This document shows, piece after piece, positions 2-30,814 of a stretch of 31,394 nt of DNA; the stretch's first letter is position 1; each line of letters starts with the position of its first letter. The translations under genes and the position numbers were made by a program. Under the pieces are notes generated by a model. That model was not told the DNA's origin. It worked only from the letters and a program-made list of their open reading frames with translations, and made no database searches. Source of the DNA: a virus; IMG/VR virus record IMGVR_UViG_3300006080_000008, positions 1-31,394 of that record, one strand, 5' to 3'.

Positions 2-943
2 CAGAGCGACGAGGCGATCTTCGAGCCGAAGCGAGACTCCGGCGGTCGCTTTGTAAGCATTGACGAAACGACGCAAGGCCTCCATGCGGTGGAGGCACCA
101 CCTGAAGCACCGGCAGCAGCCCAGCCGGATCCACCCGAGTGGGAGCAGCAGGGTCAGCGACGCGTTGACACCATGTTGTCAAGCGAGATCCAAACGCTCC
201 ACGAGCGGCTGCGCCAGGCAGAAGACCGGGAGCAGCGAACGCAGCAGTGGATTAACCAAACCTTCCCGACAGAACAGACCTACCAAACATATCAGCAGCA
301 GGCTCCGCAGGCATACCAGCAGCAGGCATACCAGCAGCAGCCTCCGCAGCCTCCGCAGGCATACCAGCAGCAGGCATACCAGCAGCAGGCATACCAGCAG
401 CAGGCATACCAGCAGCAGCCTCCGCAGCCATATCAGCCGCAGCCGGATCCGTACATGGATCCAGACATTATGGACGCACAACAGCGGGTGCTGTGGCAGC
501 AAAATCAGCAGATGCAGCAACACCTACAACAGCAGCAGCATGCGCAGCAGCAGCATGCGCAGCAACTGGAAACGGTGCAGCAGCACATCAACGAACAGGA
601 AGATCGGTACTGGCTCGCTCAAGTTGAGCAGGAAGCCCAGCAGGCGACTTCGCGTTACACCAGCGCGCGCCCGCAGTCGGTGCTTGCGATGTTTGCGGCC
701 TGCAAGGGCAGCAAGTCGATAGCGCAGTGTGCTCGCGAGGATCACGAGTTCATTCAGTCGGAGATCAACAGTGCAATTTCCGCACGGGCATCGCAGGGGG
801 CACCCCCCACCCAGGTACGCGGTCGTGAGACTCTTGAGAGTGCGCGATCAGAATTGATCCCAAACGGGCTCATTAAAGGTGACTTTGGCGATTTTGAGAG
901 AGTCGCCCAATTTACAAGGAAGCAATTCGGAGTTAGGAGGTAA
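2..943 (+). CDS. Gln-rich scaffolding protein candidate (5' partial)
   Basis: The frame is open to the left edge, so the true start is probably outside the window; a GTG at 89 is the first internal alternative. The protein is rich in Gln, Pro and Ala. It has tandem AYQQQ repeats (DNA 311-418), then a long Gln/Glu-rich helical stretch with heptad-like spacing, then a mixed, basic C-terminus. It lies directly upstream of the major capsid gene and its stop codon lies in that gene's ribosome-binding region. In T7-like phages this slot holds the assembly scaffold, which helps the capsid shell form and then leaves. The role is inferred from position and from the disordered, coiled-coil-like composition, not from recognised homology. 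A capsid decoration or minor head protein is the main alternative. Confidence 0.6.
   Translation, partial: QSDEAIFEPKRDSGGRFVSIDETTQGLHAVEAPPEAPAAAQPDPPEWEQQGQRRVDTMLSSEIQTLHERLRQAEDREQRTQQWINQTFPTEQTYQTYQQQAPQAYQQQAYQQQPPQPPQAYQQQAYQQQAYQQQAYQQQPPQPYQPQPDPYMDPDIMDAQQRVLWQQNQQMQQHLQQQQHAQQQHAQQLETVQQHINEQEDRYWLAQVEQEAQQATSRYTSARPQSVLAMFAACKGSKSIAQCAREDHEFIQSEINSAISARASQGAPPTQVRGRETLESARSELIPNGLIKGDFGDFERVAQFTRKQFGVRR
165..182. promoter_or_regulatory. Palindromic site TTGACA-N6-TGTCAA (intragenic)
   Basis: A full 6-6-6 copy (TTGACACCATGTTGTCAA) inside the scaffold candidate gene. No -10 element follows at normal spacing on either strand, so it is not a simple promoter. Confidence 0.65.
311..418 (+). 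repeat. 15-bp tandem repeat coding AYQQQ
   Basis: Six copies of GCATACCAGCAGCAG are seen: two at 311-340 and four at 359-418. Two copies of a 9-base CCTCCGCAG unit (341-358) separate the two blocks. All units are in frame inside the scaffold candidate, so copy-number change would lengthen or shorten the Gln-rich region without a frameshift. Confidence 0.95.
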
Positions 944-949
944 CTCACT

Positions 950-2311
950 ATGGCGTTTGACCCCACTGCCACCGTACAAGACAGCTCGAACTTTGAGGAC
1001 TCCCTTAAGATTCGGTATGCCGCCACCGTGGTCAGCATCTTGAACCGCAAGACGATCCTGCTTGGGCGGCTAGAAAAGACCCGCGCATTCTGGAACGGAA
1101 AAGAACACCGGCAGCCGATTCAGTTCGTCAGCGGTAACGCAACAGGCGCGCGCCCAGAGGGTGGCAGCATCCCGTCAGCGCGTCCGCTGACAGACGTGCA
1201 GTCCGTGATCAATAACAAATCGCACTACTGCACCGTCAAGGTCACGGGACAGGTCGAAGCTAAATCAGCCTCCAAGGAAGGGGCGTGGGCTTCGGTGAAA
1301 GCCCGGCAAATTATGAACGCAGCGGCAGACCTTCGCTCAACCTTAAACCGAGCCATGTACGGCGACGGCAATGGGATCCTTTGCGAAATGGCGAGCGTTT
1401 CCGGCTCCGGCACCACTGGCGACCCGTGGGTCGTGACCATTAAGGGCTACAACGACGGGACGACGCTGCTCAATGACTCAGGGTGGGCATGGACGACAAC
1501 CAAGCACCTCAAGCGAGGCATGCATGTTGTTTGGGGTGCATACGACGTCGGCGCAGCAGGGGGCACATTCTTTTTGACGGCTGGCGCGCCCCTCGGTCGC
1601 GGCGACGGGTACGTGTCTGAGGTGGTCACAGCCTCGCCATTTACCCAGTTTAAACTGGTAGGCGGCACCACAGCGGTTGCCCCGGTTGCTGGCGACGTGT
1701 TTGTCATGGGCGATCTGATTGCCTACGGGAAACATTCCTTTGGCCAGGAGTGCATGGGCCTGCGCGGAATCGTAAACACTGACGAGTTCCAGAGCATCGA
1801 CCCCGCGACCCACCCAGAGTGGCAAGCGCAGATCCTCCAGAATCCAAATGCCGCAGGCACCCCTCGGCAGATAACCGACACGCTGTTGCAAGAAGCGTAT
1901 GACCGAATGTCCGATCTCACCATCGGTGAGTGCGACATGATTATCGGGCACACGACGACACGCAACGCATACGTCACGCACCTCAAGAGCAAAGGGCTGG
2001 AGCGCTACGCTGCGACCCAACTCAAGGGAGGGTGGAGCACGGTAACGTTCAACGGTGGTCGCGGCAACGCCGACATCTACGCCGACAAAGACGCGCCGTA
2101 CCGCACCGTCTATGCGCTAAACACCAAGGCAATCAAGGCGTACACGATTAAGACGTTTGCCTGGGACACAACAGGTGGCGGCGTTTGGAAGTGGCCTGAC
2201 GATGAAGATGCAATGGTGGCTTTCGGCAAGACGTACCTAAATATTGGCACGACCAACCGAATTTCACAGGTCCGTATCGAAGACGTTGCCGTTAGCGGCA
2301 TTTACAACTAA
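950..2311 (+). CDS. Major capsid protein (HK97-fold candidate)
   Basis: This 453-residue protein begins at ATG 950 after a strong AGGAGG (935-940). Its length, its mixed composition without membrane segments, and its place between the scaffold candidate and the adaptor/nozzle genes fit a short-tailed phage major capsid protein. The N-terminal part (about residues 1-60) is helical in character. The middle is rich in Gly, Thr and Val, as in beta-rich capsid domains. The C-terminal part has segments ending in a Gly/Trp-rich stretch (GGGVWKWPDDE, about residue 407). I recognise the general look of phage capsid proteins but not a specific named relative. A palindromic site follows at the next gene's start. 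Confidence 0.75.
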   Translation: MAFDPTATVQDSSNFEDSLKIRYAATVVSILNRKTILLGRLEKTRAFWNGKEHRQPIQFVSGNATGARPEGGSIPSARPLTDVQSVINNKSHYCTVKVTGQVEAKSASKEGAWASVKARQIMNAAADLRSTLNRAMYGDGNGILCEMASVSGSGTTGDPWVVTIKGYNDGTTLLNDSGWAWTTTKHLKRGMHVVWGAYDVGAAGGTFFLTAGAPLGRGDGYVSEVVTASPFTQFKLVGGTTAVAPVAGDVFVMGDLIAYGKHSFGQECMGLRGIVNTDEFQSIDPATHPEWQAQILQNPNAAGTPRQITDTLLQEAYDRMSDLTIGECDMIIGHTTTRNAYVTHLKSKGLERYAATQLKGGWSTVTFNGGRGNADIYADKDAPYRTVYALNTKAIKAYTIKTFAWDTTGGGVWKWPDDEDAMVAFGKTYLNIGTTNRISQVRIEDVAVSGIYN

Positions 2312-2330
2312 CTAACGCCCAAGGAGGAAG

Positions 2331-2348
2331 TTGACAATGTTTGGTCAA
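2331..2348. promoter_or_regulatory. Palindromic site TTGAC-N8-GTCAA, over a start codon
   Basis: This is an exact copy of the dispersed palindrome (TTGACAATGTTTGGTCAA). It overlaps the start codon (ATG 2337) of the beta-helix gene and abuts its Shine-Dalgarno sequence. A bound protein or RNA structure here could affect expression; that role is inference. Confidence 0.65.
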
Positions 2349-3317: not shown

Positions 3318-3319
3318 AC

Positions 3320-4490: not shown

Positions 4491-6535
4491 TGGCAGAGGC
4501 AACTTATATAACCGGCCCATGGCGTGGCATTGAACAGAGGGAAACCTACCAAACGCCGCAGCACGATGAGTTTGCGCTGAACGTCGACTATTCGTCTGGC
4601 TATAAGCGCGCTCGGCCTGGAATGGCTAGTCCTCGCGGCGACGGGTTAACCCGTACATATGTGCGGGTGCTCGACCCCATGGTTGGCACAGGGCTAAATC
4701 TCGGCGGCCCGGCTGAGCCAAGGATGAAGGAAGTAACCCTGTTCGATGGCAGCAAGGGCATTCTGTGCGTTGGGTCAATGGGCCCGTGGGCCGCCACAAT
4801 CACAGTGCACGGAGCCCCGGTGGCTGTGGATCGCCCCGCAGGGGACATAGGCTTCGTTGTCTTCAATCTCGACCTCCACCCGGTAGCTACGGGGAACCTG
4901 ACTTTCCCGTGGGATGCGCTGGCAGCAACGATTCCGCTGGCAGACTCCCGGCAAGACTTTCGCTGCTCTTTCGTTGACATGTATGCGCCAACCGGCCAAA
5001 AAATGGTGGCGGTCGTGTCAAACGCGGGCACGTGGGTGTGGGATCCCAACGCAGTGCCACCCTTCCCGCTAGGCACACCCGCACCCCCCTGGCCTTACTG
5101 GAATAGCGGCGACATGCGTGCGCTGAGAATGTCGGGCGCAGTCGACGCTGACTTTGCGTTTCTATACCCCGCTTCGCGCAACTACTTCGCACTCCCCCCG
5201 AGATGCACGATCGCAACGTTCCACAACGACTTGGGCTATTTTGCAGGGTTCGCCCCCCGCGATGGTCTTCCGGTCCAAGCCGAGATAGAGGCGGATCAGG
5301 ATGGGGTGGCGGAGGTAAAGATAACCAACGACCGCCTCGGCATACGCTTTGGCCCGGAGGATTTCATTGTAAGCGATCCGGCGGTGCCCTTCAGCATACA
5401 CACAGCCGCAACGTTCAACCTGGACCTCGCGGAGCACGTGACAGGCATGCAGCCCGTGGGTGACGCGTTGGTCGTGTTTGCCGACCGCGCGATTTACACA
5501 ATTGCCGGGGATCCTGTCTTGCAAGAGGTGCCAATCTCAAAGCTGGCAGACGGGGTTGGCTGCGTTGCGCCCCATGCGATTGTCGCCGCGAGTGGCGTCG
5601 TCTACTTCATGGCGCACAACGGCATACATCGAATAGCGGAAGGCCAGGTGCAGAACATAAGCGACGGTATCTCCGGGCTTTGGACGGGCGAGTGGAACAA
5701 GACGCGCGTCAATGACACGCTTCTGCCCCTGTTTAGCGCGCTCAAGTGGCCATGGAAGATCGACCATAAGCGCTTCAACGAGGTCACCGCTGTGCACTTG
5801 CGTGACCGCAAGCAAATCTGGTGGTCGTTGCCTATCGCTGGGAGAACGCCGGGATCCAGGCCTATAGGCCTCGTGTTCGACTACGCCAACGAGGCGTTTA
5901 GCTTCTACACCTTTCGTGACGCGTTCCCAACGGGTGTGCGTTCGGGAGCGGGCACGTTCTTTTCGGATGGGTTACAGATTGAAACCGGCGGCAAGCTGCG
6001 CACGTTCTTCTGCCAGCGCTCGGAGACGGACACCTATGCGAACATCGTAGAGCTTGGCGCGCGACCGTTTGACGCGACGGGTAACGACATACCGTTCGCA
6101 TGGCAGACGGGGAGGGTGGGGGCAGGCAACGACAAGAAACTATCGTTTCGCAGGGTTCGCTTTGAGCTACTGGCAACGCGCAAGTCGCGCGCCACGACCC
6201 GCGCCTTTCTCGATGGTGATGAGGCTGCGTTTGACGTCGAGCTTGAGGGGAGCGCTGTAACAGCCGCAGAGCGGCAGAGCGATAGCCTAACGCTGGCAAC
6301 GCATCCCCGAGAAACGAACACTTATTTCTTCTCGGTTGGGCTTTTCGGGGCAACCAAATTCTCGGCAAAAGCCTTCTTCGAAAGCCGCTGCGATCCCAAG
6401 GCAATCGCCAGCAAGCACCTGTACCTGGGCGTCGCAGACGAAAGCGCCGCGCTCAGTGGCGCGGACGCGTCACCAAGCACCGTAACGCGCGGCATCTTCG
6501 TGGATGTGGGCGTCGAGGGACGGTCGCGTCGATGA
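4490..6535 (+). CDS. Tail nozzle (tail tubular protein B-like) protein
   Basis: At 681 residues it is close to T7 gp12 in size. The opening segment with RARPGM is typical of the strand-exchange start of phage nozzle and stabilisation proteins. A diagnostic stretch lies at about residues 323-390: DALVVFADRAIYTIAGDP, then a Gly-Val-Gly-Cys-Val motif, then VVYFMAHNGIHRIAEG. This 'is it drawn on screen' beta-propeller pattern recurs in podovirus nozzle proteins. The nozzle closes the tail and carries DNA out during infection. The gene overlaps the adaptor by one base and the next gene by four (ATGA), so the block is probably translated as a unit. Confidence 0.75.
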   Translation: MAEATYITGPWRGIEQRETYQTPQHDEFALNVDYSSGYKRARPGMASPRGDGLTRTYVRVLDPMVGTGLNLGGPAEPRMKEVTLFDGSKGILCVGSMGPWAATITVHGAPVAVDRPAGDIGFVVFNLDLHPVATGNLTFPWDALAATIPLADSRQDFRCSFVDMYAPTGQKMVAVVSNAGTWVWDPNAVPPFPLGTPAPPWPYWNSGDMRALRMSGAVDADFAFLYPASRNYFALPPRCTIATFHNDLGYFAGFAPRDGLPVQAEIEADQDGVAEVKITNDRLGIRFGPEDFIVSDPAVPFSIHTAATFNLDLAEHVTGMQPVGDALVVFADRAIYTIAGDPVLQEVPISKLADGVGCVAPHAIVAASGVVYFMAHNGIHRIAEGQVQNISDGISGLWTGEWNKTRVNDTLLPLFSALKWPWKIDHKRFNEVTAVHLRDRKQIWWSLPIAGRTPGSRPIGLVFDYANEAFSFYTFRDAFPTGVRSGAGTFFSDGLQIETGGKLRTFFCQRSETDTYANIVELGARPFDATGNDIPFAWQTGRVGAGNDKKLSFRRVRFELLATRKSRATTRAFLDGDEAAFDVELEGSAVTAAERQSDSLTLATHPRETNTYFFSVGLFGATKFSAKAFFESRCDPKAIASKHLYLGVADESAALSGADASPSTVTRGIFVDVGVEGRSRR

Positions 6536-7254
6536 AGAATGCCTGGAACAGACTCTACCGAGTGCCGCCAGACGCGGCGAAGCTGGGCAGCACGGTTGAC
6601 GTTACGAGGATGCTCGGCCCGACGATCACGCCGAAGTGCTCGCTACAGCGAGCATACCTGAGTACGGCGGGCGACGGCGGGCGAATCACGCTGAGCGAAG
6701 GGATTTATGAACTGCGGGGCACGTTGACAATCACACGTCAAAACTTCAGCATCGTGTCAACGTCGCCGGGGAAAACGATTATTCGGCGCAGCGCTTCGAC
6801 GTCGGGCGCTATGATCGAGGTGACGGAAACTGCAACGGGCTTCAGGCTTGTGGGCGTTTCACTGCAAGACATATCCGCAACTAATACCGACCCAACGATC
6901 CTGATAAAGGCAGAGTCTTCCGTTGTGAAAGACTGCCATTTCTTGGACTATGACACTGGCATCCTGGTAGACGCCACAGCGGGGGTGAAGATATTCTGCA
7001 ACCGCTTTGATCAGTCCACTGGGCGTGCGGCATATTGTGTCTACCTTCGCGACGCTGATGACGTTATAGTGTCAATGAACGACGTGCACCATGCGGACGT
7101 GGCGAACCCGGCAATCTATGCGGATGACAACAGCGAGCGGGTGAGCGCAGTGGGCAACACAACGCCGGGGGCAAACATGATCAGCTACAAAGCACTCAAA
7201 GAGTGCGCCGACGCAGGCAACACACCTCCAACATCCATCCAGGTAAGGCCTTAG
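6532..7254 (+). CDS. Second parallel beta-helix protein, short tailspike-like
   Basis: This 240-residue protein starts inside the nozzle gene's stop region (ATGA overlap). It has the beginning common to pectate-lyase-like folds: a helix (LQRAYLSTAGDGG, about residues 39-50), ITLSEGIYEL, then a strand with IVSTSPGKTIIRR. Rungs such as FRLVGVSLQDI, VKDCHFLDYDTGI and VKIFCNRFDQSTG follow. The product is much shorter than typical tailspikes, so it may be only a structural or trimeric shaft piece. It shares its general layout with the beta-helix protein encoded at 2337-3317, so the two may be distant paralogues. No enzymatic residues could be assigned. Confidence 0.65.
   Translation: MKNAWNRLYRVPPDAAKLGSTVDVTRMLGPTITPKCSLQRAYLSTAGDGGRITLSEGIYELRGTLTITRQNFSIVSTSPGKTIIRRSASTSGAMIEVTETATGFRLVGVSLQDISATNTDPTILIKAESSVVKDCHFLDYDTGILVDATAGVKIFCNRFDQSTGRAAYCVYLRDADDVIVSMNDVHHADVANPAIYADDNSERVSAVGNTTPGANMISYKALKECADAGNTPPTSIQVRP
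6724..6741. promoter_or_regulatory. Palindromic site TTGAC-N8-GTCAA (intragenic)
   Basis: An exact copy (TTGACAATCACACGTCAA) inside the second beta-helix gene. No promoter elements are evident around it. Confidence 0.6.
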
Positions 7255-17764: not shown

Positions 17765-17782
17765 TTGACGTACATTTGTCAA
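17765..17782. promoter_or_regulatory. Palindromic site TTGAC-N8-GTCAA in the late-operon gap
   Basis: An exact copy (TTGACGTACATTTGTCAA) in the 55-base gap after the giant gene, the longest gap among the packed late genes upstream of the lysis region. It sits 8 bases before the GGGAGG of the next gene. A -10-like TATAGG lies only 15 bases from TTGACG, so a promoter here is weak at best. Confidence 0.65.
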
Positions 17783-19077: not shown

Positions 19078-19983
19078 ATGCTACCAATGAGCTACAACCT
19101 GCGCGCAAGCCGCCACCTGTGGAGCGTTGACGAACTGCCCCCCCAGTTGCGCGCATGCGACCCGTCGAGCCGCGCGTTTGCGCATGCCGTGCTTGGGTTC
19201 CAAAAAACACACTCGCTCGTGGCTGATGGCAAGCTAGGGCCGAACACCATCGCGGCTGTCCGTGCGCGTAGCGAACCCGCTTCGGGCTCTCCAGCTACAT
19301 TCCCAACTCCTACCGGCGACGTATCGGACAGCCGCATCCTCATCAATGGTGAGTATTATGACGTCCCTTTTAGCGTCACCCAGCACGAGCCTTTCAGTGG
19401 CCGCAAGCGAACCAAGAAGGTTAACACCGTTTTGGTTCACCAGTCGGTCACGTCCAGCGTCGCGACCACCGAGCGGGTGCTTAGGAAGAAAGGGCTGGGC
19501 GTGCACCTTATGATTGACGGTGACGGAAGCATCCACCAGTACGGTGATTTGGCCACACAGAAGCTCGCGCACGGCAACGAGCGTAACGGGTGCTCCATAG
19601 GGGTCGAGGTAATCAATCCCTACACCAAGGGCAAGAAACCTTGGGCGAAACCGGTGCCGTCCAAGACTGCGTGGAAGGGCAAGGAGGTGCTGGATACGGA
19701 CGAGCAGATGGTTTCGCTCGATGCGCTGTGCGCGTTCTTGTGCAGCCACAGCTTTCCGGGCAGTGCCAGTGTTGACATTGAACTGTCATTCCCAACCACC
19801 AAAAAAAGCGGCCCGAGCCGAGGTCATGCGGCGTGGTTCAATAACACCGTTGGTGGAATCATAGCCCACGGCCACCGTCCTTCCCGGTATCCTGCCGGGC
19901 ACAAGAAAGCGGGCACGAAGGTTAGGGGCGCGCACGCCGATGCACGCATGACGGTGTATCGTCTTTTGCAGAGGATGGCGTAG
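19078..19983 (+). CDS. Endolysin: N-acetylmuramoyl-L-alanine amidase with PG-binding-like N-terminus
   Basis: The start chosen is ATG 19078, after a purine-rich GGGGGGAAG; the frame extends upstream only into the previous gene. The 301-residue product has a peptidoglycan-binding-like segment (FQKTHSLVADGKLGPNT, about residues 41-57). An amidase_2-type domain follows from about residue 115: VNTVLVHQS (His121), LGVHLMIDGDGSIHQYGD (His143), a further His165 and CSIGVEVINPY (Glu177), with more histidines near the C-terminus (AHGHRP). These fit the zinc-binding and catalytic sites of the family. It would cut the amide bond between muramic acid and the peptide to lyse the host. A small membrane protein gene follows with one-base overlap. 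Confidence 0.8.
   Translation: MLPMSYNLRASRHLWSVDELPPQLRACDPSSRAFAHAVLGFQKTHSLVADGKLGPNTIAAVRARSEPASGSPATFPTPTGDVSDSRILINGEYYDVPFSVTQHEPFSGRKRTKKVNTVLVHQSVTSSVATTERVLRKKGLGVHLMIDGDGSIHQYGDLATQKLAHGNERNGCSIGVEVINPYTKGKKPWAKPVPSKTAWKGKEVLDTDEQMVSLDALCAFLCSHSFPGSASVDIELSFPTTKKSGPSRGHAAWFNNTVGGIIAHGHRPSRYPAGHKKAGTKVRGAHADARMTVYRLLQRMA
19772..19789. promoter_or_regulatory. One-mismatch palindromic site (intragenic)
   Basis: TTGACATTGAACTGTCAT inside the endolysin gene. Differs from the consensus only in the last base. The inner bases are close to those of the site at 27567-27584. Confidence 0.35.
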
Positions 19984-20252
19984 TGGCTAAGTGGCTAACC
20001 AATCATGCCCTGGCACTGTTCCTTGCCGCATGCTCGTCGATGTTGTGGATAGGCGGCGCGGTGTGGTGGACAGCGGTAACAGTTACAGAGGTGGAGGAGC
20101 GATCAGCGCGCAACGAGCACGCGCAAGCGAAGCACGAAGAGGGAAGCGGGCACAGTCAAACGCGCGAGCAGTTAGTTCGCATTGAGACAAGACAACAGGC
20201 AATCATTGAGAGGCTTGACGGTATCAAATCAGAAATGGTTAGGGGCCGCTAA
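19983..20252 (+). CDS. Small membrane protein with coiled coil (holin or spanin-like)
   Basis: The GTG start overlaps the endolysin stop by one base (TAGTG). The 89-residue product has one membrane segment at about residues 8-32 (ALALFLAACSSMLWIGGAVWW) followed by a charged helix (VEERSARNEHAQAKHEE... VRIETRQQAIIERLDGIKSE). One N-terminal membrane anchor plus a periplasmic coiled coil fits an i-spanin. A single-span holin is also possible. Position directly after the endolysin supports a lysis role. The choice between holin and spanin is open. Confidence 0.65.
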   Translation: MAKWLTNHALALFLAACSSMLWIGGAVWWTAVTVTEVEERSARNEHAQAKHEEGSGHSQTREQLVRIETRQQAIIERLDGIKSEMVRGR

Positions 20253-20253
20253 G

Positions 20254-20634
20254 GTGGCACACCCGAAGAAGATCAAGGCGGCGCAGGAGTTGGCTGGCGG
20301 CTACGCGCGCGGCACCGGGCCATTCCCCACCCAGCACCCGTACGTCTACAACAAGGATGGATCCACAAGCAACGTGCTCACGATTACGGTGGAGATGGAC
20401 GGCAAGCACTACGTTATCCCTTCGATGGTCGGCGGCAAAAAACTCTCAGGCACGGCGGCTGTGGCGGTCGCAAAGAAACACGGCTTAAAGAACTATCCTT
20501 CTTTTAGAACAGCGGCAGAGGCACTAACAGCCTCAAAGAAGCTACACGGAAAACAGCCACCCCCCCGAAGGGCGGCAATGCAAAAAGTTCTACGCAGGGG
20601 TAAGTTGGGCATTGAGGAAACGAGGGGGCGCTGA
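20254..20634 (+). CDS. Hypothetical phage protein with IPSMVGGK-type domain
   Basis: The start is GTG 20254, two bases after the previous stop; the frame is open upstream but overlaps the membrane protein gene. The 126-residue product includes HPYVYNKDGSTSNVLTITVE, then YVIPSMVGGKKLSG and YPSFRTAAEALTASKKLH. I recognise this order (a 'DGS...T.TVE..G..Y.IP...GGK.L' region, then an 'F.S...A...A' helix) as a recurring phage domain of unknown function, often met in late genes. No enzyme motif is visible. It ends with the TGATG overlap to the next gene. Confidence 0.6.
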   Translation: MAHPKKIKAAQELAGGYARGTGPFPTQHPYVYNKDGSTSNVLTITVEMDGKHYVIPSMVGGKKLSGTAAVAVAKKHGLKNYPSFRTAAEALTASKKLHGKQPPPRRAAMQKVLRRGKLGIEETRGR

Positions 20635-21620
20635 TGGATCCTAAAACACAAGCTGCGCTTGACCGATTGCTTGCACTTGTGACCAGTTCGGAAAACTTTC
20701 TCCGGGCAAGAACGGAAGCAAACCGTCCCCCGGTGAGGCAACCCGTGATGTTAAGGCAGGGTGCCGCGCCGAAGGGGGCGACGCTGATTTCGGAACTTGG
20801 AGTTGAGGGATACCTTAACTCACTCAAGAACCGACAGCACAACATTCAACCTGCGGTGAGGTTGCCACCAATCGCACAGCACGTGCGAAGCCTCCCGCCG
20901 GGGACGCAGACGACTATCTTCGATCCAGGCCGAGGGGTTGCTGGCAAACCCCTGCCACCGGGCCCGATTGAGGGCCCCGCGCCCACACCCTACGCACATA
21001 AGGGCTACGGCAGCCTCCGGCCAGGCGGGCCCATCGTTGACCCGAAAGGCCTGTGGCCTGCGTCGGGCGTGCCACCAACAGTACGCGGGGCTGCCCCCCC
21101 TGTGCCCAACCCACAATTTAAGAACTTCTCGTCCCAGGCGTTTGTGCCGACTCAGACAGATGTTGCGCTTCACGGTTACCGACCAACCCCGGCTGCCGCA
21201 ATACCGGAGTTGGCACCGGCCGGTCGATTCGGGCAGGCTATGGCTAAGCTTGCGCCCGCTGCAAGAATCTTGCAGCGGAGTTTGCCCGCCTTGGGGCTCG
21301 CTCACCCGATGCCGACCCTCGAAGGGGGCAGGATCGTTCCACCGGCCAGTGATCCACTGACTGATCAAGCGGTGGACTTGTTGACAAAGCCACGTCAAAC
21401 GCTCAGTGATGTGCCTCGCGCGTGGGAGGAGTTCTTCGGTGGCGCGAAGATGGGTGCGGATATCCTGAAGTCGCGGCTCTTCCCCCAACACAAACTTAGT
21501 GAGGGGTTGGATCCGGCGATGCTGGCGCGTGCTGCGAGGGAAAAGGCTAACCGACGACCCCAACCCACTCCACAACACAGCGTGCCGCCGTGGTGGCCGG
21601 GGGCTCAGGGGGGTCGCTAA
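20634..21620 (+). CDS. Pro-rich hypothetical protein, 328 aa
   Basis: ATG 20634 overlaps the previous stop by one base. Residues about 1-60 are helical. Residues 90-200 are rich in Pro and Gly (for example PLPPGPIEGPAPTPYA) and probably disordered. The remainder contains a helical Ala-rich piece and a charged C-terminal helix. No signal peptide or membrane segment is seen. I do not recognise the family. It lies in the lysis and late region, so it may be a virion part or a lysis accessory; the sequence does not decide. Confidence 0.55.
   Translation: MDPKTQAALDRLLALVTSSENFLRARTEANRPPVRQPVMLRQGAAPKGATLISELGVEGYLNSLKNRQHNIQPAVRLPPIAQHVRSLPPGTQTTIFDPGRGVAGKPLPPGPIEGPAPTPYAHKGYGSLRPGGPIVDPKGLWPASGVPPTVRGAAPPVPNPQFKNFSSQAFVPTQTDVALHGYRPTPAAAIPELAPAGRFGQAMAKLAPAARILQRSLPALGLAHPMPTLEGGRIVPPASDPLTDQAVDLLTKPRQTLSDVPRAWEEFFGGAKMGADILKSRLFPQHKLSEGLDPAMLARAAREKANRRPQPTPQHSVPPWWPGAQGGR
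21381..21398. promoter_or_regulatory. Palindromic site TTGAC-N8-GTCAA (intragenic)
   Basis: An exact copy (TTGACAAAGCCACGTCAA) within the Pro-rich gene, about 1.2 kb before the next exact copy at 22603. Confidence 0.6.
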
Positions 21621-22582: not shown

Positions 22583-23335
22583 CTAAAGCAGCGGCTGTTC
22601 CTTTGACGCTTCACTGTCAACCTTCTCTTTCTTGCTTGGTTTGCTCGGCTTCGCGCCTTCGTGCATGGCTGAAGCGAACTCGCGGTAGCTCATTGGCAGC
22701 GTAGCAGGGAGGATGCCGCTGCGGTCGCCTGCTTCGATTACGCTTGTTCGCTGGCACCATAGTTGCCGCTGGCCCCCATCGTCCACGCCTGCGAACATCA
22801 CAATGTCCGACCGACCCAGCACAATGTCGCGCGCGCGACCCGTTAGCGTTGGTCGAATCACCATCGTTCGCGCCTGTGTGTTGTCAAGGAACTCTTCGCG
22901 GCTGTGTGACAGCATCCACACGCCGAGCTTCGTTCGGCAGAGGTCGTTCACGAACTTCTCAAACGCATAATTGATTCGCCCCCACACCTGGCGCGGGTCG
23001 CGGGCTTCGGTCGGGTGGCCAATGTTCATTTGGTCGCACATGTGCGCCATGCACAACTTATGCGCCTGGTCGATTGTGTCCACGATCACCGTTGTAAACG
23101 TGTGCTTGCCTGCGATCAGCTCACGCACTGCCTTTTGTAGCGTCTCCCAGTTGGTGCAGTCTAAGCGGTGCGTGTCGAGTGCGTTCAGCCCCGCTTCGGT
23201 GGCTAGGAACACGCCCCCCTTGATGCGGCTGGCAGTGGTCGACTTCCCGATCTTCGGAGGTCCGTAGAGGGTGACTATCTGGCGGTCTGGGTCGATGAAT
23301 CTTTTCGTTTGTTTTGTGGGGAGTATTCCCATCAT
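22583..23335 (-). CDS. Sak4-like AAA ATPase (single-strand annealing/recombination)
   Basis: This 250-residue protein has a clear Walker A, GPPKIGKST (residues 25-33), and a Walker B-like TVIVDTID (about residues 82-89). It lacks a long N-terminal domain and ends in a Lys/Glu/Ser tail. Size, motif spacing and layout fit the RecA-like phage ATPases of the Sak4 type, which act with single-strand DNA-binding proteins in recombination. Its start overlaps the nuclease gene's stop by four bases (ATGA), so the two are coupled. A second start codon lies one codon downstream. A palindromic site sits within its last codons. Confidence 0.75.
   Translation of the reverse strand: MMGILPTKQTKRFIDPDRQIVTLYGPPKIGKSTTASRIKGGVFLATEAGLNALDTHRLDCTNWETLQKAVRELIAGKHTFTTVIVDTIDQAHKLCMAHMCDQMNIGHPTEARDPRQVWGRINYAFEKFVNDLCRTKLGVWMLSHSREEFLDNTQARTMVIRPTLTGRARDIVLGRSDIVMFAGVDDGGQRQLWCQRTSVIEAGDRSGILPATLPMSYREFASAMHEGAKPSKPSKKEKVDSEASKEQPLL
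22603..22620. promoter_or_regulatory. Palindromic site TTGAC-N8-GTCAA near a convergent junction
   Basis: An exact copy (TTGACGCTTCACTGTCAA) in the last codons of the ATPase gene, 31 bases from the end of the rightward operon. A road-block to converging transcription is possible but is inference. Confidence 0.6.
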
Positions 23336-24294
23336 GTCCTCGCGGTTAGTTCTTGGTTTGGGGATGACTCAATATAATGGTTTTGCCTGACGACTGGGGA
23401 GAAGTCGGACGAGCAGAGTTTGTAGAACCGGCACGCACCGTGGTACTTGAAGCAAAAGTCTGGGTTTTGGTAGTACGCAGGGTCGCCCACTTGCGCGGCT
23501 TCGAGCATTTGATTTTTGAGTGCCCATACTTCGCGGTTCATTTGCAAGATGCGGCTTGGGTTGTACGTTATGTGCGTACGTTCGTAACGCTCTTCTTTCG
23601 CATGGTCTTCGAGCAGCCGCGCAAGGAACGCGTCTCGCGGTTCAAGTTTGGTCTTGCCGGTGGGGTTCATGCCGCGCCTGCGGAGGTCGGACTTTTGAAT
23701 GATGTCGAAGATAACCCCGACGATCTCAATGCCCAGCGCGCGCGACGCGTGCTCAATGTACCAGGCCGCCTGGAAGTTTGACCATAATCTGTCACGACGG
23801 TAGGCCGATGCTGAGATCTTCGACACGGTTTTGTGCTCAACGAGCCAGTACTCGCCTTCGTGCTTCACTAGCAGGTCAAGTTTGCCGCCCAAGTGGAGCT
23901 TGCGAGCACTGCGGCCACTATCAGGGTTGACTAGCGGGGACTCCCACTCCTGCTCCACGCTGACGACTTCCCAAGGGTCATACTTGCGCGGGTACTTGCG
24001 GAAGTAGCCTTCGAGCGCAGCTATTACGTAGAGGTCATAGCTGCGCCCGAAAAGCGATATCCGTTCTTCCTCTGCCTCGAAGCGCGCCTGCACCTTGTCG
24101 AATATCTCCGCTGCGGCCATCCCGTTGAACCATTGTTCAAGGCCCCAATGGACGATACCCCCAAAGTGCAGAGGTTGAGAGATTGCGCGCGGCTCGATTG
24201 CCTCGACGTTCCGCCAGTACCACAGACGTCGGCAATTGCGGAAGTCGCACACCTGTGAATAGGTGAGCTTTTTTTTCTGCACCCCGTTGGACAT
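23332..24294 (-). CDS. Cas4/RecB-like PD-(D/E)XK nuclease with cysteine cluster
   Basis: This 320-residue protein carries the family signature: a conserved His49 (FGGIVHWGLE), Asp140 in GGKLDLLV, and Glu153-x-Lys155 in WLVEHKT, followed by a Gln/Tyr helix (NFQAAWYIEHA). Cys16 near the N-terminus plus three cysteines near the C-terminus (C-x6-C-x5-C in DFCFKYHGACRFYKLC) match the iron-sulphur cluster of Cas4- and AddB-type nucleases. It probably resects DNA ends for the ATPase encoded just downstream in the same operon. It is an isolated phage nuclease, not part of a CRISPR locus. A -10-like TAGAGT and -35-like TTGACG lie just upstream of its ATG. Confidence 0.8.
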   Translation of the reverse strand: MSNGVQKKKLTYSQVCDFRNCRRLWYWRNVEAIEPRAISQPLHFGGIVHWGLEQWFNGMAAAEIFDKVQARFEAEEERISLFGRSYDLYVIAALEGYFRKYPRKYDPWEVVSVEQEWESPLVNPDSGRSARKLHLGGKLDLLVKHEGEYWLVEHKTVSKISASAYRRDRLWSNFQAAWYIEHASRALGIEIVGVIFDIIQKSDLRRRGMNPTGKTKLEPRDAFLARLLEDHAKEERYERTHITYNPSRILQMNREVWALKNQMLEAAQVGDPAYYQNPDFCFKYHGACRFYKLCSSDFSPVVRQNHYIESSPNQELTART

Positions 24295-24299: not shown

Positions 24300-24328
24300 A
24301 CTCTATCGTGGAACGACTTGACCGTCAA
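24300..24328 (-). promoter_or_regulatory. Leftward promoter candidate for the nuclease-ATPase operon
   Basis: On the minus strand TTGACG (24323-24328) and TAGAGT (24300-24305) are 17 bases apart. Transcription would begin almost at the ATG (24294), giving a leaderless or nearly leaderless message. The -35 overlaps the palindromic site at 24318-24335. Confidence 0.4.
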
Positions 24329-24335
24329 CCGTCAA
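24318..24335. promoter_or_regulatory. Palindromic site TTGAC-N8-GTCAA in a divergent gap
   Basis: An exact copy whose spacer contains an extra GTCAA half site, giving GTCAACC-GTCAAC side by side. It lies in the 59-base gap between the divergent nuclease gene and the rightward gene at 24354, where a bound repressor could control both. Confidence 0.65.
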
Positions 24336-24581: not shown

Positions 24582-24913
24582 TGGGCAAGATGCAGCGTGA
24601 CAAGGGGGCAGGTTGGGAGCGGGACGTCGCGCGCCGGTTGCGCGATGTGATGCCTGGCTGCGACGCAAAGCGTGGCTTCCAGACTCGCGGCGGCGCTGCC
24701 GAGTGTGCGGATGTGACGGCTGGCCCGCTTCACATTGAGTGTAAGGTGGGGAAGCGACCACCCGTGCGCGCGGCGCTACTGACTGCGACAACGACGTGCC
24801 CAAAGGGAATGATCCCCGTGGCCGTTATCAAGGAAGATCGCAAGCCACCCTATGTGGTGCTGCTGTTGGATGACTTTGAGGATTTCTTAAAGGAGTGGTG
24901 GGAGCGGCGCTAG
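24581..24913 (+). CDS. PD-(D/E)XK nuclease, Holliday-junction-resolvase-like
   Basis: The start is ATG 24581, after a near-perfect GGAGGTGA (24570-24577); a TTG one codon before is less likely. The 110-residue protein opens with RDKGAGWERDVARRLRD (Glu13), then RGFQTRGGAAECADV (Asp44), then HIECKVGKR (Glu53-x-Lys55), and ends with PVAVIKEDRKPPYVVLLLDDF. That order (E, D, ExK, then a hydrophobic strand) fits small phage resolvase or VRR-NUC-like nucleases. It probably resolves branched DNA, working with the nearby nuclease and ATPase. Its TAG stop and the convergent gene's stop share the CTAG at 24910-24913. Confidence 0.7.
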   Translation: MGKMQRDKGAGWERDVARRLRDVMPGCDAKRGFQTRGGAAECADVTAGPLHIECKVGKRPPVRAALLTATTTCPKGMIPVAVIKEDRKPPYVVLLLDDFEDFLKEWWERR

Positions 24914-25158
24914 ATGTTCGCGTCTACTGCCTGAGCCTGTAGGCCAGCGCGGCGCACAAGGCGCAACCCTTCGACGTCCTGCAACATCATAAGCAGCACC
25001 CGTGCCGACGGGTGCGGTGATGCCTTGCCGAGTTCCCACGACCAAACGGTCGACTCATCCAAGCCACCGACAAGGCGCGCGAACTTCTGCCGCGATAGGT
25101 TGAGGGTTGTTCGTGTGTTTTTGACAATGGGGGGCCACTGTTTCTCTGTTTCACTCAT
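24910..25158 (-). CDS. Cro/C1-type helix-turn-helix regulator, 82 aa
   Basis: The 82-residue product contains an XRE-family helix-turn-helix at about residues 14-60: NTRTTLNLSRQKFARLVGGLDESTVWSWELGKASPHPSA (the LSRQKFARLVG and STVWSWELGK parts are diagnostic). It overlaps the recombinase gene by 8 bases. It is a candidate repressor or Cro-like switch protein for the dispersed palindrome, but is short for a phage C1 repressor and lacks a cleavable C-terminal domain. That link is inference. The stop shares CTAG with the convergent nuclease gene. Confidence 0.7.
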   Translation of the reverse strand: MSETEKQWPPIVKNTRTTLNLSRQKFARLVGGLDESTVWSWELGKASPHPSARVLLMMLQDVEGLRLVRRAGLQAQAVDANI

Positions 25159-25825
25159 TTGATGCCTCTCTTTTTAGAAGTTTGTGGATCTGTGCTGCTG
25201 TAAATGGCTTGCCCTTCCGGTTGGCAATGCCCTGCTTGTGCATGGCGGGCCCGATGCGCCTGTAGGCTTCGCCTGTAGCGCGCATCGCTGCCATGACTTC
25301 GATTGTTTGCTGCTCGTCGTCGTCGGTGACCAGTAGCTTGCCGTTGCGCCTATACCCGTAGGGTATGTTGCCGACGCATTCGCCGCGCTTTTTCTTGACG
25401 TCAACCGCCGCCTTTGTGCGTGCGCGGATCAACGCAAGTTCGTACTCAGACACAGCATCTAGCACCCGCCTAAATAGCAACGCCTCGCTGGTTTCACCGT
25501 TCGCCGCGCCTTCGGCTGCCATTACGCGAGCACCCGCACGCTCTACCTGGTGCTCGATGACAGCCATCGCGAACACATCCCCGCGCGACAGTCTGCCCCG
25601 ACGGTAGACAAGCAGTACCTGTGCATCGCAATCACTGAGGGCATTGATCGAATTTAGCAAGCCAGCCCGATTTGACAGTTGAATGTCACCCGACTTGTGG
25701 TCGATCTCTTCGTGGACAATCTCCAGCCCCGCGCCCAACGCGAAGCGCTCGCACGCCTCGCGTTGGGCTTCGATGCCGTATTCCTGGCGACGGGTTGACA
25801 CGCGGATGTAAAGCACTGCTCTCAT
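25151..25825 (-). CDS. Serine recombinase, resolvase/invertase-like
   Basis: This 224-residue protein has the catalytic N-terminal resolvase domain: MRAVLYIRVSTRRQ (nucleophile Ser9), YRRGRLSRGDVFA (the R-LSR region) and RRVLDAVSEYELALIRARTK (linker helix). A shortened recombinase-type C-terminus begins with GNIPYGYRRNGKLL and ends with a helical part. Serine recombinases cut and rejoin DNA at paired sites. In a phage this can mean integration, inversion of a tail gene, or dimer resolution. It is smaller than large serine integrases, so integration is not certain. It overlaps the winged-helix gene by four bases (ATGA). Confidence 0.8.
   Translation of the reverse strand: MRAVLYIRVSTRRQEYGIEAQREACERFALGAGLEIVHEEIDHKSGDIQLSNRAGLLNSINALSDCDAQVLLVYRRGRLSRGDVFAMAVIEHQVERAGARVMAAEGAANGETSEALLFRRVLDAVSEYELALIRARTKAAVDVKKKRGECVGNIPYGYRRNGKLLVTDDDEQQTIEVMAAMRATGEAYRRIGPAMHKQGIANRKGKPFTAAQIHKLLKREASNE
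25673..25690. promoter_or_regulatory. One-mismatch palindromic site (intragenic)
   Basis: TTGACAGTTGAATGTCAC in the serine recombinase gene; it differs from the consensus only in the last base, like the site at 30797 read from its other strand. Confidence 0.35.
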
Positions 25826-26394
25826 TGAGCGGCTGCCGCCCGGTGCACAAGGTCGCTGCTCTCAAGGCGCAGAACGACGGAGGGACCGCCGCACGGTGGT
25901 TCTAACCACAACTTCTGTGCGGCCGCTAGCTTTGCGGGCACAATGCGAATGCGCCACTGGTCAACGGGCCGCTGGGCTGGATCGCCAACGTGCTCCACAA
26001 GCCCTTTTCGGATCAGCTGTTGGGCGGTTTTTTGCAGCGTGGACACGGGCCGGTTTAAAATCACCCGCATGTCCCAAATGCGCACGCCTTTGTGGAATGA
26101 TGTGGCGGCTGCTTTTTGGTTCTCGCACGCGAGTATGTAAAGAACCCACCGTTCTATGGGCCCGAAGCGTAGCTTTGTCCTCCGTGGCGATGCGGCTGGT
26201 TTTTTGGCTTGCTCCGCTGCTATTTCGACGATGTCGATGCCGCCAGTACGATAAGCGTCAACCGCCTCGCGAAGGTGTCGACGTCCTGCAATCTTATCGT
26301 GCTCGGACAAGGTGAGGTACGTGCCATGCGCGAGGCTTTCCAGCCACGCCTCGAAGCGGTCCTTAAGAAGTTCCTTTAGCTTATCTTTTTTCAT
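25822..26394 (-). CDS. Winged-helix DNA-binding protein candidate, 190 aa
   Basis: The N-terminal 65 residues are helical and charged. Residues about 76-140 resemble a MarR-like winged helix: a first helix (FGPIERWVLYILACE), a second region (VRIWDMRVILN), then a recognition-like helix and wing (RPVSTLQKTAQQLIRKGLVEHVGD). The C-terminus is of mixed composition. It may be a regulator and a second candidate for binding the dispersed palindrome, or a replication-initiator-like protein. It overlaps both neighbours by four bases, so it is in one operon with the recombinase. The family is not firmly recognised. Confidence 0.55.
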   Translation of the reverse strand: MKKDKLKELLKDRFEAWLESLAHGTYLTLSEHDKIAGRRHLREAVDAYRTGGIDIVEIAAEQAKKPAASPRRTKLRFGPIERWVLYILACENQKAAATSFHKGVRIWDMRVILNRPVSTLQKTAQQLIRKGLVEHVGDPAQRPVDQWRIRIVPAKLAAAQKLWLEPPCGGPSVVLRLESSDLVHRAAAAQ

Positions 26395-26684
26395 TTCGTC
26401 TCCCCATTTGTTGCCGGTCTATTGTCAAGGTCTAGCTCTCTGTTATGCGCGTCGCGCGCTATCTGTTTAATCACACTCAGTGCATTCTCTGGCGGCAAGG
26501 CCTCCGGCCAGTCGGGATGTGCCGGGTCGGCCAGTTCTGCGATGCTGTGCAATGCGTGGCGTAGATGCGCGCGCTCGCGATCCAACATGTCCGCAGCCGC
26601 GCCGAGCATGAATAGCCCGGCACGGCGTTTGTCGGGTGTTGAATCTGCGAACTCGCGCGCAAGTTCAAGGAATCTTTTCTTCAT
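26391..26684 (-). CDS. Hypothetical helical protein, 97 aa
   Basis: ATG 26684 follows a good GAGGTGA. The product is almost wholly helical (MKKRFLELAREFADSTPDK, AGAAADMLDRERAHLRHALHSI), acidic and basic in mixture, with no membrane span. It overlaps the gene on each side (by 4 and 20 bases) in the leftward operon. The family is not recognised. Confidence 0.5.
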   Translation of the reverse strand: MKKRFLELAREFADSTPDKRRAGLFMLGAAADMLDRERAHLRHALHSIAELADPAHPDWPEALPPENALSVIKQIARDAHNRELDLDNRPATNGETK

Positions 26685-27142: not shown

Positions 27143-27152
27143 GTAGTCCCCC

Positions 27153-27458
27153 TTAAATACAGTCGCTTGGATGTTCGCCGGTCTCTTCGCCCCAACACGC
27201 ACGGGGTGCCAACATTTGGCCAGCCCAGTTATAGTCGGTGCCGCACTTCGTGCACGTGTTCGTGAAGTTAAACGTTGCGAGCTTTTTGGCGCAGCAAATC
27301 ACGAAGCGGCTCGCGTCGCGCTCTTCACGCCACGCCTCATCCGCCTTGTAGTCTTCATGGCAGGTTGTTGAGCAAAAGCGCATGTGGGCCGGGAAGCCCT
27401 GGATAATGTCGCCCGTGATGGGCTCGTAGCACTCGTTGCAGCGGTGGTGTTCGGTCAT
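27153..27458 (-). CDS. Small zinc-finger-like protein, 101 aa
   Basis: The start is ATG 27458, preceded by the AAAGGGGACTAC leader; upstream codons in frame are in the gap region. The product has Cys7-x2-Cys10, Cys29-x3-Cys33, a Cys55-Cys56 pair and Cys69-x2-Cys72, which suggests one or two zinc-binding folds. It is the first gene downstream of the gap holding the palindromic site and the terminator. It may bind DNA or protein, but no specific family is recognised. Confidence 0.6.
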   Translation of the reverse strand: MTEHHRCNECYEPITGDIIQGFPAHMRFCSTTCHEDYKADEAWREERDASRFVICCAKKLATFNFTNTCTKCGTDYNWAGQMLAPRACWGEETGEHPSDCI

Positions 27459-27566
27459 GTAGTCCCCTTTGAAGTTTGAAAGTTCAGCCCGTAGGTTAGA
27501 CGACCACCGGGAAAACGCAAGGGGAAAACTCAACTTTCTTTTACCCGTAGGGTGTGGCGTTCCAAG

Positions 27567-27584
27567 ATGACAGTTCATTGTCAA
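27567..27584. promoter_or_regulatory. One-mismatch palindromic site in an operon gap
   Basis: ATGACAGTTCATTGTCAA; the first base differs from the consensus. It lies between the terminator of one leftward operon and the first gene of the next, where a control site would be expected. Confidence 0.5.
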
Positions 27585-27651
27585 CCTGACATTTGGGGTC
27601 TATGCACGCGCGCGCGTGGAGATTTGCGGCGTTGACTATTCAATGTTAGGC

Positions 27652-27693
27652 AAAAAAAAGGGTGCCCCACGCGCGATGCGTAGGACACCCTTT
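27652..27693 (-). terminator. Intrinsic terminator of the right-hand leftward operon
   Basis: Read leftward, an AAAGGGTG...CACCCTTT stem (about 8 to 11 base pairs with mismatches inside) is followed by a run of eight T. It lies 20 bases after the RadC-like gene's stop. This is the clearest intrinsic terminator in the window. Confidence 0.8.
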
Positions 27694-27712
27694 ACCCAGT
27701 GGGGACCGGGGT

Positions 27713-28512: not shown

Positions 28513-28514
28513 TG

Positions 28515-30092
28515 TCAGTCCCCCAAAATGTCGTCAAAACTATCGTCCATTGAAAAATCAAACGTTGCGGTGCATTTCTCCAAAATCCACCGGGCTTGTT
28601 GTCGGTTTAACCGGGTTTGCGTGCCACGCGAAAACGCGTGTGCTGTGGCGTTAGCAGTGTCAGCACCAGCGAAAGCGCCACCGGGCATTGTCCAGCCGTC
28701 CGTTAGCCGGTAACGATGCCACGTGTCGCCATCACTAAATAGCGCGCTAATATGCGTCGCACACTCGCGAAGCGCTGCGACAATGGCCGCATTTTGGGTG
28801 CCATCCGTTTCCAGCGCTGCGCCAAGTTCCGCTTCCAAGTCGGGGGCGGTCGGTTCGGGCGCAGCCGCCAAACTTGCGTTGGCGGCTGCGTTTGGGTTGC
28901 GCTCGGTGGGCGCTGTGTCGTCGCTAAACTCCAACGCGCGGCGCTGTGGCCCGCTTGGCGATGTGCTCGGATCGTCGTCGTCGTCGTCCGTTTCCAGCGC
29001 TGTTAATTGCTTCGCTGCCCGGTAAAGTTTCCGCAAGTCGTCCGACGACGCCGACGACGCAAACGCTAGCGCATGCGCTATGATTTGCGGCCGCAAGTCG
29101 GTGTCGGTGGATAGGGTGCTTTCGTCTGCAAACGTGCAATCTTCTTCTAACAGATCGGCCAGTAGGCGAGACGAGTCCGCCGCAACGAAAAACTCCAACT
29201 CGCGGCGCGCCGGTGGATCCGGCGTTGCGACGGGCGCTGTGGTTTCGGTTGCCGTTGCCGTTGCCGTTGCGTGCTCACCTTCCAGGACGTGGTAGCGTGC
29301 GGCTAGCGCGTCATGTGCGCTAGCCTGTGAGTTGATTTGTTCACGCAAGGTGGCAATCGTAGCCGACAAATCAGCATAGGCTATTGCACCACCCAAGGCG
29401 ATTTGCGTGCGCGGTGTGCTTTCGTGCTCGAATGTATAACTACAACCCGTGCATAGGATTTGGTGCCGCCGGTAGGTTGACGGCGCGCAACGGATTAGCT
29501 GACCACAGCTACACATCAACGGGATGTAACCTGTTTGAGCCGTTTCGCGGCGCGACTGCGGTACGCGGATCCGCTCGGATGCTAGCGCGTCGACTAGGGT
29601 TGACAGTGCGTTGTCAAGTGCGGCCTGTTGGTTGTAGTCCCAACGCTCGCCACGAAGCCAAAAGAACACGTCGTCAAGAGATGGGCGACTTGTGCGCTCG
29701 CTGTTTCGCAGCACGCCAAAGCAACTGCGCGCCGTACCGTGAAACACGCGGTTATGATAGCGGCCTTGACGCGACGTATCCTGATTGCCGTCGACCGCGT
29801 TGATAGCGTGCGTGGCCTCATGAACTAAGAGCGCGAACACGTGGTACGCGTTGTCCTTGGTGTCGTCGTTGTGACTACTTAGCGCGGCCGCAGCGATTGC
29901 GACTTCGCCCAACGTTTCACCGTCATTTGTCCACGTGTCCGCAGGCCGATCGCCAGACCAAGTGGATCCGGTGATAGGCGTTGCGGTATTGATTACGATT
30001 ACAGCGTCGGGAATGCGCGGTATGTGCAAGCGCAGCTGGTGCCACACTCCCTCGCATGCCGCTACAATCCGTGAGCCTACTTTGTCCGTCAT
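28515..30092 (-). CDS. SprT-like metallopeptidase with zinc ribbon and long C-terminal region
   Basis: The start chosen is ATG 30092, preceded by AAGGGGACTGA (the shared leader); the frame extends 11 codons further without support. The 525-residue protein has HExxH at residues 91-95 (HEATH) and a likely third ligand His113 in GRYHNRVF, the SprT-type layout. A C-x-C...C...CxxC zinc ribbon follows at about residues 203-230. The C-terminal half is low-complexity in part (ATATATATE, DDDDDD) and contains two RR-x-LEF motifs. SprT proteases cut proteins cross-linked to DNA in cells, but a phage protein may have another role. It is the largest leftward gene. Confidence 0.75.
   Translation of the reverse strand: MTDKVGSRIVAACEGVWHQLRLHIPRIPDAVIVINTATPITGSTWSGDRPADTWTNDGETLGEVAIAAAALSSHNDDTKDNAYHVFALLVHEATHAINAVDGNQDTSRQGRYHNRVFHGTARSCFGVLRNSERTSRPSLDDVFFWLRGERWDYNQQAALDNALSTLVDALASERIRVPQSRRETAQTGYIPLMCSCGQLIRCAPSTYRRHQILCTGCSYTFEHESTPRTQIALGGAIAYADLSATIATLREQINSQASAHDALAARYHVLEGEHATATATATETTAPVATPDPPARRELEFFVAADSSRLLADLLEEDCTFADESTLSTDTDLRPQIIAHALAFASSASSDDLRKLYRAAKQLTALETDDDDDDPSTSPSGPQRRALEFSDDTAPTERNPNAAANASLAAAPEPTAPDLEAELGAALETDGTQNAAIVAALRECATHISALFSDGDTWHRYRLTDGWTMPGGAFAGADTANATAHAFSRGTQTRLNRQQARWILEKCTATFDFSMDDSFDDILGD
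29249..29271. repeat. 6-bp tandem repeat (GTTGCC) in the SprT-like gene
   Basis: Three full GTTGCC units plus part of a fourth code the ATATATAT stretch on the minus strand. Confidence 0.8.
29600..29617. promoter_or_regulatory. Palindromic site TTGACA-N6-TGTCAA (intragenic)
   Basis: A full 6-6-6 copy (TTGACAGTGCGTTGTCAA) within the SprT-like gene. No -10 element at normal spacing on either strand. Confidence 0.65.
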
Positions 30093-30138
30093 TTTTTCAG
30101 TCCCCTTGGGTCGTTTGCAGCACAAGCGCTGCGACGTT

Positions 30139-30161
30139 GGGCCAAACGTGATGCTTGGCCC
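30139..30161. other. Inverted repeat in a short gap
   Basis: GGGCCAA and TTGGCCC form a 7-base-pair stem around a 9-base loop, in the 87-base gap before the SprT-like gene. There is no T run, so it is not a standard terminator. It might shape the leader RNA. Confidence 0.35.
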
Positions 30162-30179
30162 GCAGTCGCAATGCTGGTG

Positions 30180-30455
30180 CTATACGTGATAGATGCGCAC
30201 GGAAACGCCGTTTGGCGCGTCGTTGTCGCCATAGGCCACAAAACCTGCCTCGCGGCCGATCCGGTTGATCTCGCGCCAACACGTCGCTTCGTCTCGCCAC
30301 CCCACAAGGTGGGCACCAACCGCAAAGCGGATGCGCTCAAGTGCTATGTCATTGCCAGCGCCCTCGCATGCGGTACACAGCGCGTCAATCCACGCCGCAA
30401 GGAATTGGGTTAGGTCGTTTACGTGGGCCATTTGGTCGGTGTAAGTGTAAAGCAT
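30180..30455 (-). CDS. Hypothetical protein, 91 aa
   Basis: The start is ATG 30455, preceded by GAGGTGAACTGATC; the upstream extension has no good site. It lies 2 bases after the stop of the zinc-knuckle gene. The product has an N-terminal helix (TDQMAHVNDLTQFLAAWIDALCT), a helical middle (DIALERIRFAVGAHLVGW) and ends with a beta-like VSVRIYHV. No motif is recognised. Confidence 0.55.
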   Translation of the reverse strand: MLYTYTDQMAHVNDLTQFLAAWIDALCTACEGAGNDIALERIRFAVGAHLVGWRDEATCWREINRIGREAGFVAYGDNDAPNGVSVRIYHV

Positions 30456-30457
30456 GA

Positions 30458-30736
30458 TCAGTTCACCTCCCCATACGCCGATTCTAACGCATCGCCACAC
30501 TCGCCACATGGTAGGTCCGTATCCTCCCAATTGATGAAGTGTGAGACCACAGGACTATCAAAGCCCTCACATATATCCGCTGTGACACAGTCGGGACACA
30601 ACACGTCATTGTCGGCGGTTACGTAGGCGATAGGATAACCACCGACCATTGTGAACGAACGAACGGTGTAGGTACCGTCATTGTGTGGCACCAGCAAAAT
30701 GGTCGGATTCATTGGGTGTGCGTAAATGTCAATCAT
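30458..30736 (-). CDS. Small zinc-knuckle protein, 92 aa
   Basis: ATG 30736 is preceded by the AAGGGGACTGACC leader. Two CxxC pairs (Cys47-x2-Cys50 and Cys77-x2-Cys80) flank about 26 residues, which suggests one zinc-binding fold, with AYVTADNDVLCPDC before and PCGECGDALESAYGE after. Similar small proteins occur in other phages and actinobacterial elements, as far as I can recall. It is the first gene of the operon behind the promoter at 30785-30814. Confidence 0.6.
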   Translation of the reverse strand: MIDIYAHPMNPTILLVPHNDGTYTVRSFTMVGGYPIAYVTADNDVLCPDCVTADICEGFDSPVVSHFINWEDTDLPCGECGDALESAYGEVN

Positions 30737-30784
30737 GGTCAGTCCCCTTGGGTTGCGCCGCCGGATAATCCCGGTGACGTCTGG

Positions 30785-30814
30785 AGAATAGGCGACGTGA
30801 CATTATCGTGTCAA
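30785..30814 (-). promoter_or_regulatory. Leftward promoter with overlapping palindrome
   Basis: On the minus strand TTGACA (30809-30814) and TATTCT (30785-30790) are 18 bases apart, a good sigma-70-like pair. The start would lie about 40-50 bases before the zinc-knuckle gene. The -35 is one arm of the palindromic site at 30797-30814. Confidence 0.6.
30797..30814. promoter_or_regulatory. One-mismatch palindromic site over the -35
   Basis: GTGACATTATCGTGTCAA. It overlaps the -35 of the leftward promoter, the position expected of a repressor operator. Confidence 0.6.

Follow-up and report, generated by a model that had tools for sequence, protein, structure and literature searches.

An evolutionarily maintained, symmetric 18-bp site dispersed through the genomes of one phage group

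Why should a single spaced palindrome, TTGAC-N8-GTCAA, recur along the genome of a phage, mostly inside its genes? The window analyzed here, the whole 31,394-base stretch of an IMG/VR contig, derives from a virus of bacteria known from environmental sequence only. It encodes a major head protein, virion proteins, an endolysin, a Sak4-like protein, a PD-(D/E)XK exonuclease, and a RadC-like protein, together with a serine recombinase and an XRE-like helix–turn–helix (HTH) protein. Close contigs (G001, L012, and L013) overlap both window ends and bridge the gap between them, which gives a circular map of ~41.1 kb; the bridging part, read in G2 and homologues, carries terminase, P22-type portal, and DUF5906 primase/helicase genes. 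G2 (contig G002, L009/L010; 25.9 kb) shares ~64% DNA identity with the window phage in common genes. GC content is 58.8% in the window and 49.5% in G2, nine points apart, despite synteny and an 88% identical capsid protein. A DNA search of phage records with the whole window returned no match.

Copies, spacing, and form of the site

The window holds nine exact and ten one-mismatch copies of the motif, and the whole circular map holds 13 exact and 10 one-mismatch sites. Recounting recovered every exact position reported in the first-pass annotation, as well as its three full TTGACA-N6-TGTCAA copies (165, 12645, and 29600). Its nine one-mismatch copies required amendment: The true total is ten, a copy at 23778 having been overlooked, and the copy placed at 25673 begins at 25672; the other eight were correct. 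The 19 sites are as follows (window coordinates; no strand assigned).

165–182: exact, full 6+6, TTGACACCATGTTGTCAA; in the gene upstream of the capsid gene (probable scaffold); identical in G1, and the aligned G2 site at 11618 has one mismatch
2331–2348: exact; overlaps the start of the gene after the capsid gene; 18/18 bases identical in both G1 and G2
4974–4991: one mismatch; coding; kept in G1, absent in G2
6724–6741: exact; coding; kept in G1, absent at the aligned position in G2
7058–7075: one mismatch; coding; aligned G2 site at 18557 with the same core
12645–12662: exact, full 6+6; in the 1932-aa gene; kept in G1
14775–14792: one mismatch; in the 1932-aa gene; kept in G1
17765–17782: exact; intergenic, after the 1932-aa gene
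19772–19789: one mismatch; in the endolysin/amidase-like gene
21381–21398: exact; coding
22603–22620: exact; 3′ end of the Sak4-like gene
23778–23795: one mismatch (the added copy); in the PD-(D/E)XK exonuclease gene
24318–24335: exact; intergenic, upstream of the exonuclease–Sak4 genes
25672–25689: one mismatch; in the serine recombinase gene
25795–25812: one mismatch; 5′ end of the serine recombinase gene
26411–26428: one mismatch; directly upstream of the P0001 start
27567–27584: one mismatch; start of the 27153–27584 reading frame
29600–29617: exact, full 6+6; in the 536-aa gene
30797–30814: one mismatch; directly downstream of the 30847–31254 gene; kept in L013 at 1454, with an exact G2 site at 632 downstream of the homologue of that gene

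Spacing is fixed, as had been proposed: The same half-sites occur exactly nine times at spacer 8 and zero times or once at each other spacer from 0 to 20. Among all palindromes in the window with 5-base arms and spacers of at most 24, TTGAC-N8-GTCAA ranks first, with 0.018 exact copies expected from base composition; the 59 other palindromes obtained from the permuted half-site had on average 0.03 exact copies and 0.4 copies with one mismatch. Codon shuffling that preserved the proteins of the 32 assigned genes (300 runs) reduced exact copies to two (245 runs), three (54), or four (1), and one-mismatch copies to about three. The two exact copies that survived every shuffle are those lying wholly outside assigned genes.

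Across 37 sites from the window species and G2, the symmetric consensus of the 18-bp site is TTGACANTNNANTGTCAA. TGAC/GTCA is near-invariant; preference is strong for the outer T/A and the inner A/T and moderate for T/A at the third inner position, giving inner preferences of A.T..A.T. Other 5-bp palindromes at spacer 8 (37 in the window, 27 in G2) are as frequent as those at neighboring spacers, so it is the letters that matter and not base pairing. One-mismatch sites show no compensating change in the opposite arm. Literature searches with several spellings of the motif gave no match. The form TTGACAATTACATGTCAA is suggested as a target for binding tests with the candidate proteins described below.

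Maintenance in close relatives and absence from distant ones

The sites are kept in the close relatives G1 and G2. In contig G001 (96% identical), all seven overlapping window sites are retained, spacers included. G2 carries nine exact and five one-mismatch sites; within the window–G2 aligned regions used for comparison (~45–75% DNA identity), 7 of 11 comparable sites fall at the same aligned base, the remainder being lost or moved (binomial p ~6e-5). At codons for the same amino acid in the window and G2, third bases were kept in 17 of 20 cases inside sites versus 1237 of 3120 elsewhere (Fisher p ~8e-5), which indicates that selection acts on the DNA site itself. By these alignments, the sites are preserved by selection independently of the proteins encoded across them.

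Distant relatives (~45–50% protein identity in capsid and terminase) contain no exact site and a single one-mismatch copy in total across G3 (34.7 kb), G4, G5, L022, L024, and L026–L028; these motif-less relatives show no substitute palindrome of similar strength either. As far as these contigs sample it, the motif is restricted to one phage group. A repeated word in G3, GCATAACATGA, was considered as an equivalent array and rejected, being the ribosome-binding-site/start leader of early genes. Several leaders of the form AGGAG-N-GCATAACATG stand at the starts of small early genes in this phage (L018:81-2800). The window gene at 20182–20634 is 84% identical in L027 and L028, against capsid-protein identities of only ~41–45%, a pattern indicating recent exchange between lineages.

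Layout of the array and candidate binders

Fifteen of the 19 window sites are wholly coding. As the first-pass annotation had stated, copies lie in genes of both strands; the control points at which it also placed copies amount to a mild intergenic excess (4 of 19 sites not wholly coding vs. 5.7% of all 18-mers, p ~0.02). Gaps are more even than under random placement, with coefficients of variation (CV) of 0.51 for exact sites (p ~0.01), 0.65 for all sites (p ~0.02), and 0.59 in G2 (p ~0.04), all modest p values, and several gaps lie near 2.1 kb in both phages. A promoter reading, with TTGAC as the −35 element on both strands, was rejected: There is no −10 excess at promoter distance.

Four candidate binders are considered, listed here with the neighboring recombinase.

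24910–25158, minus strand: P0002, 82 aa, XRE-type HTH; downstream of the serine recombinase; weak Pfam HTH_3 match
25151–25825, minus strand: serine recombinase, 224 aa; Pfam Resolvase 1.1e-23; relative in G3
25822–26394, minus strand: P0001, 190 aa; at most a MarR-like winged-helix hint (Pfam E 0.074, not significant)
30847–31254, minus strand: conserved protein; ribbon–helix–helix-like pattern, by eye only
L013 2602–2811 / G2 1774–1980, outside the window: HTH_38 protein, 58–68 aa

P0001 and P0002, the pair named in the first-pass annotation, stay on this list as candidates, with neither singled out. P0002 has weak HigA/MqsA-like matches in the PDB, and a similar HTH protein follows the recombinase in the motif-less relatives L018, L020, and L022. 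Searches with P0001 found no relatives and no significant match among PDB chains, and its structure model is poor (mean pLDDT 40); the exonuclease and P0002 likewise gave nothing useful when their relatives were sought. The G2 contig stops short of the region that holds the P0002 and P0001 genes in the window. The two further candidates are common to both motif-bearing phages. The 30847–31254 protein is ~60% identical in G2, and sites adjoin its gene in both phages; it had no family match in the domain libraries searched, its structure model is poor (mean pLDDT 51), and remote relatives occur in G3 and L028, both motif-less. The motif-less contigs, mostly incomplete, yielded no counterpart of the HTH_38 protein.

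Readings of the array and comparison with known systems

Sites kept by selection independently of the proteins that they run through are, almost certainly, where a paired DNA-binding protein docks, one that would control or organize the whole viral genome. The first-pass proposal of phage-wide sites for a dimeric protein thus survives the codon shuffles and the comparison of relatives, with the dimer as its conjectural part. Starting from a solid array, we infer the mechanism as follows. The sites would be operators for a dimeric, probably phage-encoded protein, most likely a silencing repressor that acts in a stoperator-like manner; we give this reading somewhat less than an even chance. Each subunit of the homodimer would read one TTGAC(A) half of the 18-bp site, and the repressor would bind along the entire genome and block transcription elongation as stoperators do, with the few intergenic sites serving as ordinary operators. 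Silencing is favored because the sites lie mostly within genes of both strands, are fairly evenly placed, and are not promoters, and because serine recombinase and HTH genes are present. The recombinase points to a temperate or plasmid-like life style and, with the HTH genes, to a temperate phage; lysogeny of the group can at most be presumed, since neither host nor prophage was found in the bacterial genome contigs searched by terminase and capsid. Several points count against silencing. A palindrome lacks the asymmetry that gives known stoperators their orientation, and the polarity of any roadblock would have to come from elsewhere. The recombinase–HTH pair also occurs in the motif-less relatives, which show no replacement palindrome, and for the comparable symmetric repeats of Cluster O a part in regulating transcription was judged unlikely (PMC4351075).

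The main rival to silencing is a structural role, in which a phage protein would bridge or coat evenly placed sites to compact, segregate, replicate, recombine, or package the DNA. We consider it on balance unlikely. The even gaps, several near 2.1 kb in both phages, and the mostly coding, promoter-free positions agree with such a role, as does the preference of the Cluster O authors for a function other than transcription initiation in similar repeats (PMC4351075); the mild excess of intergenic sites does not. The partition-type site entertained in the first-pass annotation fares poorly, as neither a ParA-like nor a ParB-like protein appears among the scanned window and G2 proteins, a scan covering all but some short window ORFs. 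A broader reading, possible but doubtful, holds jointly that one phage-encoded dimeric protein of an unrecognized kind silences or folds the genome through a symmetric, promoter-independent array, and that this array evolved within one phage group, where selection maintains it through protein-coding genes.

It is decidedly improbable that a host protein, either a global regulator or a nucleoid protein exploited by the phage, reads the sites. The same motif in two phages of different GC content would suit such a reader, and the inner geometry, TGACA-N6-TGTCA, may recall the 5-N6-5 arrangement of CRP-family sites. Relatives ~45–50% identical in capsid and terminase nevertheless lack the motif, which a lineage-specific phage factor fits better, a point softened in that their hosts may differ. 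RNA hairpins in transcripts are very unlikely: A 5- to 6-bp inverted repeat with an 8- to 6-base loop could fold, but the letters are conserved beyond pairing, other 5-bp palindromes at spacer 8 are unenriched, mismatches go uncompensated on the other arm, and Rfam gave no match. A by-product of protein motifs, codon usage, or composition is scarcely conceivable. Twelve of the 15 coding sites do share one frame (x-Asp-x-x-x-Ser-x), with three in another; much of this bias arises because the third frame would contain a TGA stop. Protein-preserving shuffles abolish the coding exact sites, and these shuffles, the conserved third positions, and the permuted half-site controls together refute the artifact reading.

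The parallel with the L5 and phiC31 systems cited in the first-pass annotation is sound for the layout. phiC31 has dispersed conserved inverted repeats bound by the phage repressor; set against this general description, the repeats here are alike in dispersal and differ in sequence. The L5 stoperator site also contains TGTCAA/TTGACA. MatP binds dispersed matS sites, GTGAC-N3-GTCAC, which share the TGAC/GTCA half-sites and the dispersal but have a spacer of 3 rather than 8; no MatP-like gene was recognized in this phage. As in Cluster A (L5/Bxb1), ~25 sites are scattered through a genome of comparable length, and most stand clear of promoters. The motif itself breaks the parallel: In Cluster A a monomer binds each 13-bp stoperator, an asymmetric site whose orientation follows transcription (PMC9283540, PMC6550527), whereas the site here is an 18-bp palindrome. 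No Cluster A repressor homologue was detected when P0001 was compared with PDB chains. We would not call the array a stoperator system, although it may work like one.

Closest in form are the repeats of Cluster O mycobacteriophages, 17-bp palindromes (TGTTCGG-N3-CCGAACA) present in dozens of copies genome-wide in coding and intergenic DNA, for which the authors judged a transcriptional regulatory function unlikely (PMC4351075). Both arrays are symmetric, genome-wide, mostly conserved in position among relatives, and not tied to promoters (PMC4351075). They differ in half-site sequence, arm length, and spacer, and the Cluster O repeats belong to mycobacterial phages without integrase, whereas the phage studied here is of the P22-portal type and has a serine recombinase; its copies tolerate one mismatch, and 15 of the 19 in the window lie inside genes. 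Dispersed phage palindromes have been noted before, and this lineage, from a phage group unrelated to theirs, supplies a further, independent example, which suggests that genome-wide site arrays are commoner than the actinophage examples imply. It offers direct evidence that selection acts on sites within genes, together with a few named candidate binders, so that the function of such arrays becomes testable.

Several minor features were recorded. Tandem 15-base repeats (302–418 and 530–564) lie in the gene that precedes the capsid gene, and the G2 homologue of this gene encodes glutamine-rich repeats of the MQQQPQY type. The 536-aa protein of 28515–30125, unassigned to a family, shows by eye an HExxH-like LLVHEATHAIN and cysteine pairs, suggestive of a metalloprotease. 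Outside the window, the two phages share a conserved non-coding stretch of ~550–650 bases (L013:2050-2600 and L009:1140-1770) that lies upstream of their HTH_38 and primase/helicase genes; with its repeated GCACACCT/AGGTGTGC words in both orientations, it is likely a replication origin or control region.
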